Shown here one piece after another: positions 40,057 to 49,736 of a stretch of 64,000 nucleotides of DNA. The stretch lies in the NCBI RefSeq assembly GCF_002252635.1, contig NZ_NQKX01000001.1, positions 62,001-126,000 on the forward strand. The letters run 5' to 3'. Source of the stretch: Synechococcus sp. MW101C3 (lineage in GTDB: Bacteria > Cyanobacteriota > Cyanobacteriia > PCC-6307 > Cyanobiaceae). The notes under the pieces were generated by a model, which made no database searches, was not told the DNA's origin, and saw only the letters and a program-made list of their open reading frames with translations. The position numbers and the translations under genes are program-made. Within the stretch, counting starts at the first letter, position 1. Every line of letters begins with the position of its first letter.

Positions 40057-42588
40057 CTATAGGGCGAGAAGCGGCGCCTGAACCCCCGGCTCTGTGCCTT
40101 CCTCACATGCCGACCAGGCCAGCGCCAGCAGCTGGCCGAGGGCCAGGCCGCCGTCGTTGCAGGGCACCCGCTGGGGCCACACCGCTTCAACGCCGGCCGC
40201 CGCCAGCGCCGTCACGGTCAGTTCCAACAGCAGGCGGTTCTGGAAGCAGCCGCCGCTCAGCAGCAGGCGGTGCAGCTGCAACCGCTGCGCCAGCTCCACC
40301 AGCAGGGCCGCCAGGGCGCGGTGAAAGGCCAGCGCGATCGACGGCACGGGGCGGCCGCGGGCCAGATCGTCGAGCACGGAAGTCAGCAGGGGGTGCCAAT
40401 CGAGCAGCCACGGTGCGGCCACGCCGCTGGCAGCGGCAGCAGGTGCTGCGGCGCAGATGGGGAGGCGATAGGCCGGCCAGCCCTGCGGCTCCGGCGCGTC
40501 CAGCGCGGCCTGGGCCGCCGCCTGCAGCCGCAGTGCCCCCTGCCCTTCGAAGCTGCAGCGCTGCACCAGACCGAGCAGCGAGGCGAGGGCGTCGAACAGG
40601 CGGCCCATGCTCGTGCAGAGCGGCGCCTTCAGGCCTGTCTCCATGAGGCGCTCCAGCAGTTGCTGCTCCCCGTCGCCGAAGGCGGCCCGGGTGGCCGGCG
40701 GGGTGTGGGCCTGGCTGTCCGCCCCGAAGGCGGCGACCAGCAGCCCGAGCGCGGCGCGGCGCGGTTCCCGTAGGGCCCGTTCGCCGCCGGGCAGGGGGAA
40801 GGGCCGCAGCCGCGCCAGGTGCGTGAAGCCGAGCGCGGCGCCCGCCCGCGGGGGCTCCAGCCGCAGGCACTCGCCGCCCCAGAGCAGACCGTCGGGGCCG
40901 AAGCCGGCGCCATCCCAGGCCACCCCTGTGGCCGGCAGCTGTAGACCGTGCTCCGCCAGGCAGGCCAGCAGGTGGGCGTGATGGTGCTGCACGGCGAGCA
41001 CCGGCAGACCGCCCCAGGCCTCCGCCAGCTCGCGGCCGAGGCGGTGCGCGCTGTAGCCGGGGTGCAGGTCGACGGCGAGCCGCGACGGGCGCAGCTGCTG
41101 GCGCTCCAGCCAGCTGAGCAGGCTGCCGGTCAGCCGCCGTTCGCCGGCCAGCGTGCCGAGATCGCCGAGATGGGGCCCCAGCAGTGCGCGCCTGCCCTGG
41201 CTAATGGCGATGGCACTTTTCACCTGGCCGCCCATGGCCAGCAGCACGTCGGCCTGTCGGGGCATTGCGGCCGGCGGGGGCGCCGGATCCGGCAGGGTGA
41301 TGGCGGTGGGCGCGGTGCCACGTGCCTGGCGCAGCACCATCACTGCTCCGGCCACCACCTGGGCCACGCCGTCGTCGACGGGGTTGGCGATCGGCCGGTT
41401 GTGGCTCAGCAGACCATCGGCGAGGTCCGTGAGCAGGTCCAGCCCATCGGCCTCGCTGAAGCCCAGCGGTTCGCCTGAGCGGTTGCCGCTGGTGGCCACG
41501 AGCGGCTCCCCCACCGCCTCCAGCAGCAGGGCGTGCAGGGGCGAGGCCGGCAGCATCACCCCCAGCCAGGGGGTGTGAGGGGCCACACCGTCGGCGAGGG
41601 GGGCGGCGCGCCGCCGCAGCAGCACGATCGGTGCCGCCGGCCCCACCAGCAGCCGTGCCTCCGCCGCCGACACCTGGCAGTGACGCCGCACCCAGGCCAG
41701 GTGGGGAACCAGCACGGCAAAGGGTTGCTCTGGGCGCCCCTTGCGGCGCCGCAGCACAGCGACGGCCGCCGCTGAAGCAGCCCGCACCAGCAGCTGAAAG
41801 CCCCCCACCCCCTGCAGGGCCACCACCTGGTCGCGCTGCAACGCCGCCGCCGCTGCCGCCAGCGCGGCGGCGCCAGGCCCGCCGTCGCTGCCAATCCCGC
41901 CGGCGTCCCGCTGCCGCCAGCGCAGCTGCGGTCCGCAGGCGGGGCAGCCGATCGTCTGGGCGTGAAAGCGGCGGTCGCCCGGATCGTGGAATTCGCGGTG
42001 GCAGGCGGCGCAGAGTTCAAATCCGGCCAGGGTGGTGTGGGCCCGCTCGAACGGCAGGGCGCGCAGCAGGCTGTAGCGCGGCCCGCAATGGGCGCAGCTG
42101 TTGAAGGCATACCCATAGCGGCGGTTGCGTGGATCACGCAGTTCGGCGCGGCAGGCGCCGCAGGGGGCCAGATCGGCCGGAACCAGGCCCGTGAGCGCGC
42201 TGGTGGGGTCGGGGCCACAAGCGGAATCCGGGTGCGGCCCGCTGGCGGGGGCTGCCGGCAGGATCCTGAACACGTCCGGCTCTTCCCCCAGCATCTCGCG
42301 CTGCTCCTCTCTCGGCGCCCCCGCAGGCGCAGCCAGGGGCGCCAACCAGCGACGCGCCAGGCGGTCGATGCGGCTGTGCGGCGGGCGGCGGGTCTCCAGC
42401 GCCTGCAGGAAGGCTTCCAGCGCGGCGGCGTTTCCCTCCACTTCGATCAACACCCCGCCTGGGGTGTTGGTGACCCAGCCGGCCAGTTGCTGCTGCGACG
42501 CCAGCCGATGCACGAACGGCCGGAAGCCCACGCCTTGCACGACCCCCTCAATGTCGAGCCTCAGGCGCCGCCGGGGGGCGCCGCTCAT
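40057..42588 (-). CDS. hypF: Carbamoyltransferase HypF
   Basis: An 843-residue protein that makes the carbamoyl group later converted to cyanide on HypE. In order: an acylphosphatase domain (EGVVQGVGFRPFVHRLA, 14-30), two zinc fingers (CGACRAELRDPRNRRYGY, then CAHCGPRYSLL, CAACHREF and CPACGPQLRW), a YrdC-like domain (LQGVGGFQLLVRAAS onward, with PIANPVDDGVAQV) and a Kae1-like domain (LLAMGGQVKSAIAIS, VQHHHAHLLACLAE, WDGAGFGPDGLLWGGE, LLSGGCFQNRLLLE). I chose ATG 42588, which overlaps hypB by 4 bases. Confidence 0.97.
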   Translation of the reverse strand: MSGAPRRRLRLDIEGVVQGVGFRPFVHRLASQQQLAGWVTNTPGGVLIEVEGNAAALEAFLQALETRRPPHSRIDRLARRWLAPLAAPAGAPREEQREMLGEEPDVFRILPAAPASGPHPDSACGPDPTSALTGLVPADLAPCGACRAELRDPRNRRYGYAFNSCAHCGPRYSLLRALPFERAHTTLAGFELCAACHREFHDPGDRRFHAQTIGCPACGPQLRWRQRDAGGIGSDGGPGAAALAAAAAALQRDQVVALQGVGGFQLLVRAASAAAVAVLRRRKGRPEQPFAVLVPHLAWVRRHCQVSAAEARLLVGPAAPIVLLRRRAAPLADGVAPHTPWLGVMLPASPLHALLLEAVGEPLVATSGNRSGEPLGFSEADGLDLLTDLADGLLSHNRPIANPVDDGVAQVVAGAVMVLRQARGTAPTAITLPDPAPPPAAMPRQADVLLAMGGQVKSAIAISQGRRALLGPHLGDLGTLAGERRLTGSLLSWLERQQLRPSRLAVDLHPGYSAHRLGRELAEAWGGLPVLAVQHHHAHLLACLAEHGLQLPATGVAWDGAGFGPDGLLWGGECLRLEPPRAGAALGFTHLARLRPFPLPGGERALREPRRAALGLLVAAFGADSQAHTPPATRAAFGDGEQQLLERLMETGLKAPLCTSMGRLFDALASLLGLVQRCSFEGQGALRLQAAAQAALDAPEPQGWPAYRLPICAAAPAAAASGVAAPWLLDWHPLLTSVLDDLARGRPVPSIALAFHRALAALLVELAQRLQLHRLLLSGGCFQNRLLLELTVTALAAAGVEAVWPQRVPCNDGGLALGQLLALAWSACEEGTEPGVQAPLLAL

Positions 42589-43307
42589 GCGCAGGCCGGG
42601 ACTGCACCCTGGCGCTGGTGCTCCAGCCAGTGCAGCAGCGCCTCGAGGCCGGCACCGGTGCGAGCCGAGAGTTCGAAGAGGCGGGCGTGGGGCGCCACCG
42701 CTGCCAGGTGGGCCAGAGCGGCGGCGCGATCGAAGCCCACGGCCGCGGCGAGATCGGTTTTGTTGATCACCACCGCATCGGCGGAGTGGAACAGGGCCGG
42801 GTATTTGAGCGGCTTGTCTTCCCCTTCGGTCACCGAGAGCACGGCGATCCGCAGCTGCTCGCCCAGATCGAAGGCGGTGGGGCACACCAGGTTGCCCACG
42901 TTCTCGATCACCAGCAGCTCCATGTCGCCGGTGTCGAGCTGATCAAAGGCTCCCGCCACCAGCGACGCTTCCAGGTGGCACAGGTCGCCTGTCTGGATCT
43001 GCACGGCGCGGGCGCCGGCGGCCTGCAGGCGGCGGGCGTCATTGTCGGTGGCGAGATCGCCCACGATCACCCCCACCGGGCCGTGCCGCCACTGGCGCGC
43101 GACAGCTTCGAGCAGGGCGGTTTTGCCGGCGCCGGGGGCCGAGAGCACATTCACCACCAGCAGGCCGGCGGCCGCGAAGCGCTCGCGGTTGCGCGCGGCG
43201 TTGCTGTCGTTGCGCTCCAGCAGGTTGTGGCGCAGCAGCAGGGTTCGCGGCGCGGGGGCTGCCGCCACGCTGGCCATCGGCTGGCCGCAGGAGCAGTGGG
43301 AGCACAT
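42585..43307 (-). CDS. hypB: Hydrogenase nickel-incorporation GTPase HypB
   Basis: A 240-residue GTPase that works with HypA to load nickel. The start CSHCSCGQP gives a possible metal site; Walker A is SAPGAGKTALL (56-66), followed by VGVIVGDLATDNDARRL, the metal-binding switch region TGDLCHLEASLV, and NKTDLAAAVGFD. No His-rich tract is present, so nickel storage is unlikely. It lies 90 bases downstream of a small membrane ORF and overlaps hypF by 4 bases. Confidence 0.97.
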   Translation of the reverse strand: MCSHCSCGQPMASVAAAPAPRTLLLRHNLLERNDSNAARNRERFAAAGLLVVNVLSAPGAGKTALLEAVARQWRHGPVGVIVGDLATDNDARRLQAAGARAVQIQTGDLCHLEASLVAGAFDQLDTGDMELLVIENVGNLVCPTAFDLGEQLRIAVLSVTEGEDKPLKYPALFHSADAVVINKTDLAAAVGFDRAAALAHLAAVAPHARLFELSARTGAGLEALLHWLEHQRQGAVPACA

Positions 43308-43397
43308 GGCGCAGCCGGCGGCGATGGTTCCAGTCTGGGGAGAGGGCAGGAGCCATGCCCACCGGCGTAGCCCTTCCTCACCGTGGACCGGCGCCGG

Positions 43398-43649
43398 TCA
43401 GCGGTTCGGGCCGGCGGCCCTCAGGCTTTCCTCCAGCTTGATCGCCGGCAGAAACAGCGCATACTCCCACCCTTCTCCAGCCGGCCGATCTTTTTTGGCG
43501 ATCACGTCCTGGCGCGGCGGGCCTTTGCCTTCAGCGCCTGAATAGCGCTCCACGGCATGAAAGACCACCACTCTGGCATAGGCATAACCAAGCAGGTAGA
43601 GCGTCAAGGTTCCAACCAGAACGGCCGGGAGTTTGCTGAACTGAGCCAT
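43398..43649 (-). CDS. Small membrane-anchored hypothetical protein
   Basis: An 83-residue protein with one hydrophobic helix near the start (LPAVLVGTLTLYLLGYAYAR) and a polar remainder (KGPPRQDVIAKKDRPAGEGW, then FLPAIKLEESLR). It is not assigned to a family I know. It lies between a terminator hairpin (its start is 20 bases beyond the T tract) and hypB (90 bases), so it is the first gene after the structured region and may begin the hyp-nifJ transcript. Confidence 0.65.
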   Translation of the reverse strand: MAQFSKLPAVLVGTLTLYLLGYAYARVVVFHAVERYSGAEGKGPPRQDVIAKKDRPAGEGWEYALFLPAIKLEESLRAAGPNR

Positions 43650-43668
43650 GGGGGCTGGGCGAACACAT

Positions 43669-43708
43669 GAAAAAGCGAGGCCTGGCACCTACGCGTGCTG
43701 GCCTCGCT
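43669..43708 (-). terminator. Rho-independent terminator hairpin
   Basis: AGCGAGGCC (43674-43682) pairs perfectly with GGCCTCGCT (43700-43708), continued by GGCAC/GTGCT after one bulged base and closed by a 6-base loop. Read on the minus strand, the stem is followed by a run of five T. It lies 245 bases beyond the sbtB stop and 20 bases before the next start codon, so it could end the sbtA-sbtB message or serve as an attenuator for the next operon. Confidence 0.75.
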
Positions 43709-43734
43709 GATGCAGCGAACCTGCCGGTGACGCA

Positions 43735-43908
43735 TCTCCCCAGAATTGAGTGAAACCAGGGATTCAGCAACCCTGGGGAGACATAGGAATCAGGGGGCAA
43801 GAACCCCCGTGAATCCCATGGGCGCTTGAGTGAGCAGGAATCCTGTGCCGAATCTGGAGGCTTGAAGGGCAAAGCCTCGCCGATCGCGCCGCTGAACTGG
43901 CACAGGAT
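43735..43908 (-). ncRNA. Candidate structured RNA element with exclusive stems
   Basis: Several strong inverted repeats lie here. A 10-base stem (43840-43849 with 43899-43908) encloses a 7-base hairpin (43857-43863 with 43872-43878). GGGGG/CCCCC (43793-43797, 43804-43808) makes a small hairpin. TCTCCCCAG (43735-43743) can pair with CTGGGGAGA (43773-43781), but the hairpin CCAGGG/CCCTGG (43756-43761, 43771-43776) uses part of the same arm, so the two are mutually exclusive. A terminator follows on the minus strand. This resembles an attenuator, riboswitch or small RNA; the identity is unknown. The open frame across it has no protein-like character. Confidence 0.45.
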
Positions 43909-43952
43909 GAACTGACACGGATTCCACGGCAGCCAGCCGCATCATTCCTGAA

Positions 43953-44267
43953 TCAGAACTTGTGATCGCGCAGGGCTTCCACCGGGTAGATGTAGGTGAT
44001 GATCGAGTAGTCCGCGTAATACTTTGCTGCGATGTCGCTTGTGATCTTGTCGGCCAGTTCGCGGGTGCCGGTGAGCACCTCGATTTTCACGTTGGAGAGG
44101 GTGTGCGACACGCTTGGCTCTCCCGTGGAGCGAACATTGCGGCTTCCTTCACCACCGGCTGCATTGACGGTATAACCGGTGGCGCCTGACGCCTTGATGA
44201 GCTTGGTGAGTTTCTTGGAGAGGACTTCCTCTGCAACGATCACCAGCTTCCAGACCTGTTGACTCAT
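43953..44267 (-). CDS. sbtB: PII-like carbon-signalling protein SbtB
   Basis: A 104-residue trimeric PII-like protein that senses adenine nucleotides (cAMP, AMP, ADP) and controls the bicarbonate transporter Sbt[21 protein letters not shown], the T-loop region [20 protein letters not shown] and [20 protein letters not shown] match. It ends [11 protein letters not shown], so the C-terminal CGPxGC redox loop found in Synechocystis SbtB is absent, as known for Cyanobium-type SbtB. It lies 52 bases after sbtA on the same strand. Confidence 0.96.
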
Positions 44268-44319
44268 GGGTATGACCTCAAAGAATAGTAGTGAGAAATT
44301 GGATCAATGGGTTGCGAAT

Positions 44320-45327
44320 TTACTTGCCGAGCAGCACCTCTGCAATCCCGATGAACAGAGGGATGCAGATGGCGATCGCCACTGGCGTGCCGATGGCTGT
44401 GGAAGCACCGATGTAGGCCGAGGGGTTTGCTGAAGGGATGCCGGCACGAAGGGTGGGTGGGCCCGAGATATCCGAGCTGGAGGCGGCGATCACCGCCAGC
44501 ACAACCGCACCACCGATGCTGAAGCCGGTGAACTTGTGGATGAGCAGACCGACGCCGAAGGCCAGGAAGCCATGCACGATGGGGGAAATGAAGGCGTAGA
44601 TGGCGAACCACTGGGCCACCTTGCGCAGCTCATTCATACGCTGAGCAGCTTCCATCCCCATGATGATCATCAGCACCGCCAGGAAGCCGCGGAACAGGGG
44701 GTCGAAGAAGCTCTCATAGACGGGCTCGGGCTTGGTGAGGATGCCGAGGGCCACGCCCAGAAGAAGAGATGTAACGGCAGAACTCTGGAGGCTGTCCTTG
44801 ATGATCGGCCAGACCTGCACTTTCTCGACGGTGTTGCCGGTCTTCTTGGAGAGGTAGACACTGGCCACCACGATGGCCGTCACCAGCGCCGGAATGTCCA
44901 TGAAGGGATACAGGGCCGCCGTCCAGGCCTCATAGGGGATCTTGGCGGAATCCAGCTGCGGCAGCACGGCCGCCAGCGTGGAGCCGCTCACCGCACCGAA
45001 CAGACCGCCGGTGGCCACGGCGTCAGGCACGCTGATGCCGGGCAGTTTCCCGAGGGTGTATCGAGCGATGAACACGATCACGATGCCTAGCCCCACGGCC
45101 GCGAGCGCCGGGAGAAAAATCTCCGTGGGGTTGGAGTTCCGAATGGCGATGCCGCCCGTCAGGCCGATCTTCATCAGCAGGAAGAAGCTGATGAACTTGT
45201 AGATCGAATCCGGAATGGCCAGCTGGCTGCCAAGTGCGGCAACGATGATCCCGCCGATCAGGAATCCGAGGGTCGGGGACTGAACCTGCTCCAGGAAGAG
45301 CGGAATGAAGTCAGAGAGGAATGTCAC
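44320..45327 (-). CDS. sbtA: Sodium-dependent bicarbonate transporter SbtA
   Basis: A 335-residue membrane transporter for high-affinity HCO3- uptake driven by Na+, part of the CO2-concentrating mechanism. It has about ten hydrophobic helices in two inverted halves. Family motifs include TLGFLIGGIIVAALGSQLAI, LTGGIAIRNSN, FGAVSGSTLAAVLPQLD, and in the second half AVIAASSSDISGPPTLRAG with PSAYIGASTAIGTPVAIAI. The start is GTG 45327. Expression is normally induced by low CO2; a TACAGT -10-like box preceded by TGC lies at 45366-45371 on the minus strand. Confidence 0.97.
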   Translation of the reverse strand: MTFLSDFIPLFLEQVQSPTLGFLIGGIIVAALGSQLAIPDSIYKFISFFLLMKIGLTGGIAIRNSNPTEIFLPALAAVGLGIVIVFIARYTLGKLPGISVPDAVATGGLFGAVSGSTLAAVLPQLDSAKIPYEAWTAALYPFMDIPALVTAIVVASVYLSKKTGNTVEKVQVWPIIKDSLQSSAVTSLLLGVALGILTKPEPVYESFFDPLFRGFLAVLMIIMGMEAAQRMNELRKVAQWFAIYAFISPIVHGFLAFGVGLLIHKFTGFSIGGAVVLAVIAASSSDISGPPTLRAGIPSANPSAYIGASTAIGTPVAIAICIPLFIGIAEVLLGK

Positions 45328-46243
45328 GTGGCGCTTTTCGTGATCTCAGAGAATTTGTCCGGCGGACTGTAGCAATTGGCACAGGGGATTGGGTCTTTGC
45401 CGAAAACCACGGTAATCACTGGGTTCTTGGCCCTCTGCCGCCATCTGATGGCCGGGTGGCTTGGCCCATTCGAGCCTGGGTTCTTGATGGCCTGGACGCC
45501 TGCTTGGCTTGATGGCCTGAGCAGCTTGCCCGTGGTGGGGATCGCGCCCGATTCCTGAAAGCGGGGCGGGGAAAGTCCGCGACCGACGAAGGAGATTCTG
45601 CGAGAGGAAGAAATGCATCATCCCGCTGCATTTCTTGGCCAGAGCTCTTCTGAGCCGGCGAGGTTCTCAGGCTTGCAAGGGGCTCGGGCGCTGAGGATTT
45701 GAGTCGTTGCGCTTTCTGGGCTCTTCCTTGATGGATGCTGCAGAGTCAGTGCGCAGGCTGAGCAATCGTTGGCACTGATCAGCTTTTGCTGCTGACACTC
45801 GGCCCTGCCTATGGCCTGCTTATGTCGCTGCTCGGGAGATGTCGCTATGCCGCTGAGCTGAAGGCGCCTCCGCCGGAAGATGCCTGGGATGCTGCGCTCC
45901 CGGCAGAGCCCACTGCGCCCCCAGAGCCTGAGCCCCCGTACAACCTCCCAGCCTCAATCCCCAATCCCCAATACCGAAACCCGTATACCGGAGTCGCAAG
46001 TCCTGAGTCCTGAGCCCGCGCCATTGCCGGCACCATCACCCGCCTTAACCTCCACCAGCTGATGAGCAAGTCAGTGGCCGCTTTCCTCGATCTTGAGCGG
46101 CCCTGGTTGTCGGTGCGGCTGGTGGCCTGGCTGATCCTCGCCAGCGGCGAGCTGCCGCGGGAGTCGGCGCTGAGCGTGCGGGCGTTCGCCCTGCCGGTGC
46201 GGGAGGGGGAGATTCCTCACGGCCCCGTCAGTGCGATGAAACC
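45328..46243. other. Long gap between sbtA and hypA, no gene recognised
   Basis: The 916-base stretch holds the sbtA promoter at its left end and no convincing gene. A plus-strand frame from ATG 46062 has a 55-residue start (MSKSVAAFLDLERPWLSVRL onward) that looks faintly protein-like but then runs into the antisense of hypA; it may be a gene remnant. Another frame near 45786-46013 is Pro/Glu-rich with short direct repeats (AATCCCC, CCTGAGT) and seems non-coding. The gap separates the hox-hypA operon from sbtAB. Confidence 0.5.
45609..45635. repeat. Perfect 9-base inverted repeat
   Basis: AGAAATGCA (45609-45617) and TGCATTTCT (45627-45635) flank a 9-base spacer. There is no T run on either side, so it is more like an operator or processed hairpin than a terminator. 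It lies about 280 bases upstream of sbtA. Confidence 0.5.
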
Positions 46244-46486
46244 TCACGACACGTCCAGTCCGATCAGCTCCAGCTCCCGGCCTGCGGACAGCTCCAGCTC
46301 CAGGCTGGCCCCCTCAGCGATACCACCGGCCATCACCACCTCAAAGGCGAAACGCAGCGCGTCGGGATCCACCCCGGCCCGTTGCCCCACCCGCAGGCGC
46401 AGCCCATGAATCCGCGCGGCCCCTTCAGCCGCGGCGGCCGCCAGGGCGATCCGGTGCACCTCCTCCATCAGCGCCAGTTCATGCAT
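46244..46486 (-). CDS. hypA: HypA lacking its zinc-ribbon domain
   Basis: An 80-residue HypA-like nickel chaperone. The N-terminal nickel site is intact ([10 protein letters not shown], with His2 and Glu3), as are LRLRVGQRAGVDPDALRFAF and AGGIAEGASLELEL. Normal HypA is about 113 residues and then carries a zinc domain with two CxxC pairs; here the sequence jumps directly to the usual C-terminal end SAGRELELIGLDVS, with no cysteine in the whole protein. The gap is in frame. It overlaps the hoxW 3' end by 8 bases and ends the hox operon. Function without the zinc domain, which normally contacts HypB or senses conditions, is doubtful or altered. Confidence 0.85.
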   Translation of the reverse strand: MHELALMEEVHRIALAAAAAEGAARIHGLRLRVGQRAGVDPDALRFAFEVVMAGGIAEGASLELELSAGRELELIGLDVS

Positions 46487-46970
46487 CGCCGCACCAGCGC
46501 CGCACCGCCGCCAGGGCCTCGGGCAGCAGGGCGGCGGTGGCCTGCGTGAGGTGGCTGCCCAGCCCGCAGCGGTGCGCGCGCACCAGCAGTTGCCAGGCCG
46601 GGGGGGTGCGGCCATAGAGCTGGCCGGCCAGCTGCAGCAGCGCGCCGGGGCTGGCGTGATGACTGAAGGGCGGGCCCCCGGCCGCCGTTGCTGCGGCATC
46701 AGCCGCCAAGCGCTCCAGCTGCCAGCCCGGCGGCGGACAGGCCGGCGCCAGAGCGGCATCCACGAACAGCACCCGGCGGGCCTCGGCCAGCAGCAGTGCC
46801 AGCTCCGGCGTGAGCTGCCGGGTGGCCAGCACGGTGAGCTGCCGCTGGTGCCAGCCCTGCACCGCAGCGGCGATGGCCAGGCCCACGCCGTCGTCCTGCC
46901 GCAGATCATTGCCCCAGCCGATCAGCAGATCGCGCCGCTGTGGTGCCGGCCCGCCCGGGGCGGCGATCAC
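46479..46970 (-). CDS. hoxW: Hydrogenase maturation protease HoxW
   Basis: A 163-residue endopeptidase of the HycI/HoxW family that removes the C-terminal tail of HoxH after nickel insertion. The key motif is [18 protein letters not shown] with the metal-binding acidic residues, followed by [18 protein letters not shown] and VLFVDAAL, and [17 protein letters not shown] with the second-site His. GTG 46970 is chosen because it overlaps the hoxH stop by 4 bases; GTG 46979 is an alternative. Confidence 0.93.
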
Positions 46971-48481
46971 GACCGCCACCGCTCCCGCAGCAGTTCCCCG
47001 CCGGGGCCGAGCAGTTGCACGTGCAGCGGCATTTCGCCGGCGGCATGGGTGGAGCACGACAGGCAGGGATCGAAGCAGCGGATGCCCGCCTCCACCCGGT
47101 TGAGCAGGGCCTCGGCGATCTCCGGCAGGGCGGTTTCAGCCCCGCCTTCCGCACCGGCGCTGGGGCCTGCCTGGATGTGGTGGCGCGCGATCTGGGTGAT
47201 CGTGCGGTTCATCGCCCGGTTGTTCTGCCCGGTGGCGATGACCAGGTTCACCGCCTCGATCAGCCCGTCGCCATCCACCCGGTAGTGGTGGAACAACGTG
47301 CCGCGCGGCGCCTCGCTCACCCCCACCGCCTCGAAGGCGTTGAGGTGGGCGCGAGCGCGCACATGGGAGTCGCCGAGGGCCGGATCATCGAGCAGGGCTT
47401 CGATCGCCTCCAGCGCCGCGAGGATCTCGATGAGCCGGGCCAGGTGGTAATGGAAGGAGCTGGTCACCACCCGCCCGCCGCGCTGGCGCAGCTCCAGCAG
47501 TTCGCTGTCGGCGCCGGTGGTGCCGATGTGATCGCACACGTTCAGCCGCGCCAGCGGCCCCACCCGGTAGCTGCCCGCTTCCGGCCCCAGCGGCTTGTAG
47601 TAGGGGAATTTCAGGTAGGTCCACGGTTCCACCGCCTCGGCCAGCAACGCGTCGAACGGCCCGGCACCCAGGCCATCGGCCGGCAGATCACCGCCCAGCG
47701 GCGTGCCGTCGCCATCGATCAGGCGCAGGCGGCCGCCGTAGTGCTCCCACGCGCCGCCTTCCCCCACCAACGCCATAAAAAGAGAAGGAAAGTCCCCGAA
47801 CACAGCGGCCTCCGCCGCCAGCGGCCCATCCAGCAGGTGTTTGAACAGCGCCAGGGCCGCGCGGGTGGTGGCGAAAGCCTCAGGCAGCCCCGCACGGATC
47901 GCGTCGCGGTCGGCGGCGGCGAGGGGGGTGCGCACCCCACCGGCCACCGCCCAGGCCGGATGGATCTTCCGCCCGCCCAGCCGTTCGATCACCGTCTGGC
48001 CAAACTGACGCAGCCGGATGCCGCCGCGGGCCAGCTCAGGATCGGCGGCGATCAGGCCGAACACGTTGCGCCGCGCCGGATCGCAGTCCCAGCCGAGCAG
48101 GAAATCCGGGCTGCTCAGGTGAAAGAACGACAGCGCATGCGACTGGATGATCTGGGCCAGGTTCATCAAGCGCCGCAACCGCTCGGCCGCCGGCGGGATC
48201 GTCACCGCCAGCAGCTGGTCGCCCGCCTTTGCGGAGGCCAGCAGGTGGCTCACCGGACAGATGCCGCAGATCCGCGCCGTGAGCGCCGGCATCTCCGTGA
48301 ACGGCCGCCCGGCGCAGAAGGCCTCGAAGCCGCGGAATTCGGTCACATGGAAGCGGGCGGCCGCCACGCTGCCGCTGGCATCGAGGTGGATCGTGATCTT
48401 GGCGTGGCCTTCGATGCGGGTGACCGGATCGATCAGGATCGTGCGTGGTGTCCCGGCCGGTGGGGTGGGGCTCTGGTCCAT
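46967..48481 (-). CDS. hoxH: Bidirectional NiFe hydrogenase large subunit HoxH
   Basis: A 504-residue catalytic subunit of the NAD(P)-linked bidirectional hydrogenase. The nickel ligands are in [11 protein letters not shown] (Cys72, Cys75) and [10 protein letters not shown] (Cys473, Cys476); the protease should cut after His479 and release 25 residues. [18 protein letters not shown] and [19 protein letters not shown] also fit. Unlike the uptake type, this is the Hox form, as its partners show. It lies 3 bases after hoxY. Confidence 0.98.
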
Positions 48482-48484
48482 GGG

Positions 48485-49030
48485 TCAGCCGAAGCGGATC
48501 AGCTCCGCCCCCTCCATCACTGGCGTCTCGCCCCGCAGCAGCGCCTCCAGCACGGCGCGGATGCGCGCGGCTGGTGGCGGGCAGCCGGGCAGATACACGT
48601 CCACCGGCACCACCGCCTGCACCGGCAGCACCTGCTCCAGCAGCTCCGGCACGATCCCGGGTGCCTGCGGCAGGCAGCCGCTGCTGTCTGACAGCTGCAG
48701 ATAGGCCCGCTCCAGCACGGTGTCAGCGCCGGGATGGGAATTGCGCAGGCCGGGCACGTTGCTGGTGATGGCGCAGTCGCCGAACGCCACCAGCACGCGC
48801 GTGTGCTGCCGCACCTGCCGGATCAGCGCCAGGTTGTCGCTGGTGCCCACACCCCCCTCCACCAGGGCCACATCCACGTGCTCCGGGTAGGTCTTCACGT
48901 CGGAGGCGATCGGTGAGAACACCACCTCCACCAGCGCGGCCAGCTCGATCAGCCATTCGTCCAGATCGAGAAACGACATGTGGCAGCCCGAGCAGCCCGT
49001 CAACCACACGGTGGCGAGACGCAGTTTCAT
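48485..49030 (-). CDS. hoxY: Hydrogenase small subunit HoxY
   Basis: A 181-residue iron-sulfur subunit that passes electrons between HoxH and the diaphorase. [17 protein letters not shown] gives the first cluster ligands; [35 protein letters not shown] and [15 protein letters not shown] contribute the rest of the proximal [4Fe-4S] site. ATG 49030 overlaps hoxU by 4 bases. Confidence 0.97.
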
Positions 49031-49736
49031 GGCGCCGTCCCCGCACGATGGGCCCGCAGGATCACGGCCAGCCGCCAGGCCTCCTCGTGTTTCTCCTCGG
49101 CGCCGTCGCCCTTGTGGAACAGGGCGCCGGTGGGGCAGGCCATCACGCATTTGCCGCAGTCGGTGCAGGCGTCCACCGCGCCCCAGGGCTGATTCAGCCC
49201 GGCGACGATCCGGCAGTGCTCACCCCGCCAGCCCACGTCCCACACATGGGCCCCCTCCACCTCATCGCACACACGCACGCAGCGGGTGCAGAGGATGCAG
49301 CGGTTGTGGTCGAGCCCGAAGCGGTGGTGGGAGAGGTCCACCGAGCGCTGGGGGTGGCGGTAGGGCAGACGCGTGTGGTCCATGCCCACCGCCACGGCCA
49401 GGTCCTGCAGTTCGCAGTGGCCGTTGGCCACGCACACGGCACACACGTGGTTGCCCTCGGTGAACAGCAGCTCGATCAAGGTGCGCCGGTGATCGCGCAG
49501 GCGTGGCGTGGCGCTGTGCACCACCTGCCCTTCCGCCACGGCGGTGACGCAGGCGGGCTGCAGCCTGTCGCTGCCGGCGATCTCCACCAGGCAGAGGCGG
49601 CAGGCCGCCACCGGGCTCAGGCCCTCCAGGTGGCAGAGGGTGGGGATGGTGATCCCCGCCTGCTGCGCCGCCTGCAGCACGGTGGTGCCGGCGGCGGCGG
49701 CCACCGCCTGGCCGTCGATCGTGAGCGTGCAGACGC

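Follow-up and report, generated by a model that had tools for sequence, protein, structure and literature searches.

What kind of element occupies the approximately 303 bases that, on the minus strand, separate the stop codon of sbtB (43953-43955) from the start codon of the next gene (ATG, 43647-43649)? On the upstream side lie sbtA (44320-45327, minus strand), encoding a Na+-dependent bicarbonate transporter (Pfam PF05982, E = 2e-87), and sbtB itself (43953-44267, minus strand), encoding a PII-like regulator (Pfam PF00543, E = 3e-13) whose orthologues adjoining sbtA reach identities of up to 94%. On the downstream side, and on the same strand, a gene for an 83-residue protein with a hydrophobic N-terminal segment (43398-43649) is followed by hypB (42585-43307) and then by hypF, hypC and nifJ. 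The initial annotation had proposed that mutually exclusive stems in this region form an attenuator or riboswitch, coupling carbon status or redox to hydrogenase maturation and PFOR, and had also entertained a more modest reading, in which the region is the terminator-ended 3' portion of sbtAB and perhaps a small RNA. Our analysis of the region within its window (the whole 64,000-nucleotide stretch of DNA that was analysed) fits the modest reading: with good though incomplete confidence, we interpret the region as a structured 3' untranslated region (UTR) of the sbtAB mRNA, closed by an intrinsic terminator and situated at a rearranged gene junction.

The terminator (43670-43708, minus strand) consists of a 9-bp GC-rich stem (43674-43682/43700-43708) with an inner 4-bp stem, followed by TTTTT (43670-43674); 20 bases separate this T run from the ATG, as had been noted from the sequence at the outset. 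The hairpin has a computed energy of approximately -24 to -25 kcal/mol, was found in the sbtAB direction only, and occurs in the predicted ensemble with a probability of ~1 and without a competitor. In Synechococcus elongatus, where terminators of this kind function, intrinsic terminators are recognised by a stable GC-rich hairpin that runs directly into a U tract containing 4 or more U within 8 nt, and the present sequence agrees with this criterion (PMC13289151). Canonical ends account for only 22% of the S. elongatus transcription units (PMC13289151), so the presence of a terminator sequence is not in itself proof of its use; termination in the cell is what we infer here, and some read-through is likely, T5 being a modest U tract. 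A consensus terminator scan did not list the site, probably because loops were limited to 3-8 bases in that scan and the perfect arms are 17 bases apart. According to a cruder scan, a hairpin-plus-T site occurs within 300 nt past sbtB in 29 of 38 relatives, at a median first distance of 70 nt, and a terminator after sbtB is therefore the normal arrangement. Most of these terminators lie approximately 70 nt past sbtB, without the 235-nt domain that is found here.

This domain (43709-43943, minus strand; delineated from the minimum free energy structure and base-pair probabilities) comprises all of the predicted fold except the terminator, which it abuts, and is present in a single genomic copy. 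It is closed by a long-range helix, overlooked in the initial annotation, in which 43925-43943 pair with 43709-43734 (predicted probability of the outer 8 pairs, ~1.0), and which encloses three hairpins. Hairpin 1 (43840-43908) has a perfect 10-bp base (43840-43849/43899-43908), a helix probability of ~0.85 and a z-score of -3.4; the inner 7-bp stem GAGGCTT/AAGCCTC is likewise present. Hairpin 2 (43782-43820) is built around a G5/C5 core and, taken alone, gives a z-score of -5.6, a value to be read as that of a segment chosen after the fact. Hairpin 3 (43735-43781) is a 14-bp helix with a perfect 9-bp core (43735-43743/43773-43781), an energy of -25 kcal/mol and a probability of ~1. All of the stems originally described, namely those of 9 bp, 6 bp, 10 bp with its inner 7 bp, and G5/C5, lie exactly where they had been placed. 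Of the 9-base and 6-base stems proposed to exclude one another, both sequences exist, the former as the core of the 14-bp helix, but the 6-bp alternative (43756-43761/43771-43776), which sits inside hairpin 3, has a predicted probability of ~0.

The computed folding of the region as a whole is strong. Its minimum free energy is -142.6 kcal/mol, against -113 +/- 5 kcal/mol in dinucleotide shuffles (z = -5.8; 0 of 100 shuffles reached it), and a second estimate gave -5.0 for the whole region and -5.5 without the terminator, for an overall z of about -5 to -6. This was the lowest value among 194 stretches of 303 nt, the 193 others having been sampled from the minus strand of the window, and folding of the plus strand was less extreme (z = -3.6). 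A 51-codon frame (43790-43945) beginning 8 bases past sbtB has relatives at chance level only. Seven GAATC/GATTC (GANTC) sites fall within 194 bp (43761-43954), and the window overall holds fewer of them than expected (110 found versus 184).

Within the fold predictions there was no antiterminator of comparable stability that would be exclusive with the terminator. Forbidding the terminator helix raised the energy by 19.2 kcal/mol and left the rest of the fold unchanged, and the 6-bp alternative hairpin does not overlap the terminator. When the transcript was folded at growing chain lengths, a TCGCTG/CAGCGA hairpin (~43706-43720) formed just before the 3' arm of the terminator emerged, at which point it would occupy part of the 5' arm, and then yielded; in this model it is the main geometry resembling a competition with the terminator, and a faint resemblance at that. 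A near-copy of the terminator 5' arm is also found upstream (43874-43884), but by our estimate an 11-base near-copy is expected by chance about once per three such regions.

Searches for relatives of the region covered several collections. BLAST against its own genome, the genus, 300 and then 400 sampled family genomes, phages and plasmids returned short chance matches only, several of which fall on a stretch with the HIP1-like GCGATCG. One 20-base match recurred among the family genomes of the second search, and the single copy inspected in detail lies inside an apparently unrelated coding frame. A single-sequence covariance model found only itself in its own genome and 240 family genomes, and in 60 sources gave weak, chance-level matches apart from the reverse strand of the region itself. 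The exact hairpin string did not occur in viral contigs, and the Rfam search that the initial annotation had recommended, carried out with Rfam 15, gave no covariance model match, either at the gathering score or with E values allowed to rise to 1. From these comparisons, in which the family collections are sampled with one genome per species and strain-level copies could escape, the folded domain is most likely lineage-specific.

The gene order surrounding the domain is also peculiar to this genome among those compared. Relatives have the order hoxY-hoxH-hoxW-hypA-hypB, with hypA beside hypB or near it and with nothing or unrelated inserts in between. In the present genome hypA and hypB are separated by sbtA, sbtB and the small gene, so that sbtAB is nested in the hydrogenase cluster (43398-49150 of the window), an order absent from all of the relatives examined. 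Of the 56 sbtB loci compared in other genomes, not one has hypB or the small gene within its flank (up to 3 kb), and in a congener sbtAB is followed by a short terminator and then by a different gene; the junction is therefore best regarded as a local rearrangement. The hypA-hypB gap is an insertion hotspot, with differing inserts in different genomes, which, judging from their translations, we take to include an antisense cytochrome b561-like gene, a truncated-haemoglobin-like gene and others.

Directly upstream of hypB, a conserved segment (43308-43343, minus strand) that contains CCCCAGACTGGAACCATCGCCGCCGGCTGCGCC / CAGACTGGA represents a probable promoter or leader. It has 22-28 identities out of 36 in 9 of 12 relatives, versus 4-14 out of 36 further upstream, and is common to relatives whose upstream genes are unrelated to one another. 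Since this leader has been conserved despite differing upstream genes, hypB and the genes behind it are probably independent of read-through. The alignment thus suggests, and we infer, that hypB has a promoter or leader of its own and depends little on read-through, although the segment could be a translation feature instead of a promoter.

Of the downstream genes, that of the 83-residue protein alone has a clear link to read-through, which may be of importance for it. Its start codon follows the terminator at a distance of only 20 bases, and its transcription would require either read-through or a promoter within the region that has escaped recognition; a scan of the minus strand from 43000 to 44800 gave no sigma-70-like promoter. 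The protein has no Pfam or NCBIfam match, and relatives that are 61-67% identical occur in 7 family genomes. In 6 of these 7, a palindrome, TGTACA-N3-TGTACA, is found ~110-180 bases ahead of the segment that matched and is, by its sequence, a possible operator; one of the six loci carries it at two positions. The palindrome is absent from the 64-kb window, and this copy of the gene therefore seems to have been parted from the upstream region that usually accompanies it. The upstream regions of the relatives bear no similarity to the 303-base region.

If the region is a structured 3' UTR with an intrinsic terminator, the 235-nt domain would be followed in the sbtAB transcript by a terminator that would release RNA polymerase before the next gene, and thus would insulate the hydrogenase-maturation genes from sbtAB transcription. 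Stem-loops can block exonucleases and, by analogy, the hairpins probably protect the 3' end of the sbtAB mRNA. Besides the modest T5 tract, the low share of canonical ends in S. elongatus and the possible translational role of the hypB leader, two points tell against this interpretation: a plain terminator needs no 235-nt folded domain upstream, and the 83-residue protein gene has almost no room for a promoter, so that control by read-through is conceivable.

Among the alternatives, the one that survives best, improbable as it is, holds that the sbtAB 3' end gives rise to a small RNA of approximately 230-280 nt, either through cleavage of the mRNA or from a promoter inside it; this RNA would end at the sbtAB terminator and act on other mRNAs, as ApcZ does in Synechocystis. 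The domain is independent, stable and ends in an intrinsic terminator, and 3'-end-derived small RNAs exist in cyanobacteria (PMC8136909), but neither the genome nor the sampled family yielded a homologue, whereas ApcZ is conserved, and no promoter-like site was seen on the minus strand between 43000 and 44800. A related and distinctly speculative idea is that the folded domain became fixed when sbtAB came between hypA and hypB, and now acts as a regulatory small RNA or a controller of read-through, connecting the uptake of inorganic carbon with the small gene and with hydrogenase maturation.

A palindromic insertion, whether MITE-like or the decayed remnant of a mobile element, arriving with the sbtAB rearrangement would account for the folding as a by-product of inverted repeats. 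In keeping with such an origin are the imperfect inverted repeats with which the domain begins and ends (GATGCRGC...CTGCCG), the GAATC/GATTC cluster in an otherwise depleted window and the differing inserts at the hypA-hypB site, yet the domain is single-copy, its flanks display no target-site duplication, plasmid and phage records gave no match, and elsewhere the half-repeat pattern turns up only in isolated matches; we consider this quite unlikely. Least likely of all is an attenuator or riboswitch whose alternative folds would set how far transcription reads through into the small gene and on into hypB, hypF, hypC and nifJ, since, for all that the terminator immediately precedes a gene without a visible promoter of its own and has a transient competitor and an upstream near-copy, no antiterminator was found, forbidding the terminator is costly in the fold predictions, the stems originally named do not overlap the terminator, Rfam and the homologue searches returned nothing, and hypB has its own conserved leader, so that the proposed coupling of hydrogenase maturation and PFOR to the carbon or redox state was not borne out.

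Should the region prove ordinary, the message for annotators is that sbtAB has a terminator of its own, the hydrogenase-maturation genes probably being unconnected to sbtAB. Should the folded domain be functional, it would represent an evolutionarily young RNA element, placed where carbon uptake and hydrogen metabolism have recently come to adjoin, and a useful case of 3' UTRs turning into regulators.

With attenuators and riboswitches the region shares a terminator just ahead of a gene start but, unlike them, it has no competing antiterminator, conserved aptamer or Rfam match. ApcZ, a 3'-end-derived small RNA of Synechocystis, resembles it in being the structured 3' end of an operon, with hairpins and a terminator; ApcZ, however, is ~140 nt long, its promoter has been mapped, and it has a target as well as homologues (PMC8136909), whereas none of the three is known for the sbtAB region. 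There is also a likeness to the bacterial intrinsic terminator with a structured 3' UTR, of which there are cyanobacterial examples (PMC13289151): the same GC-rich hairpin and T run follow the last gene of the operon, preceded in this case by an unusually large and stable domain of 235 nt, where the corresponding site of most relatives is reached ~70 nt past sbtB.
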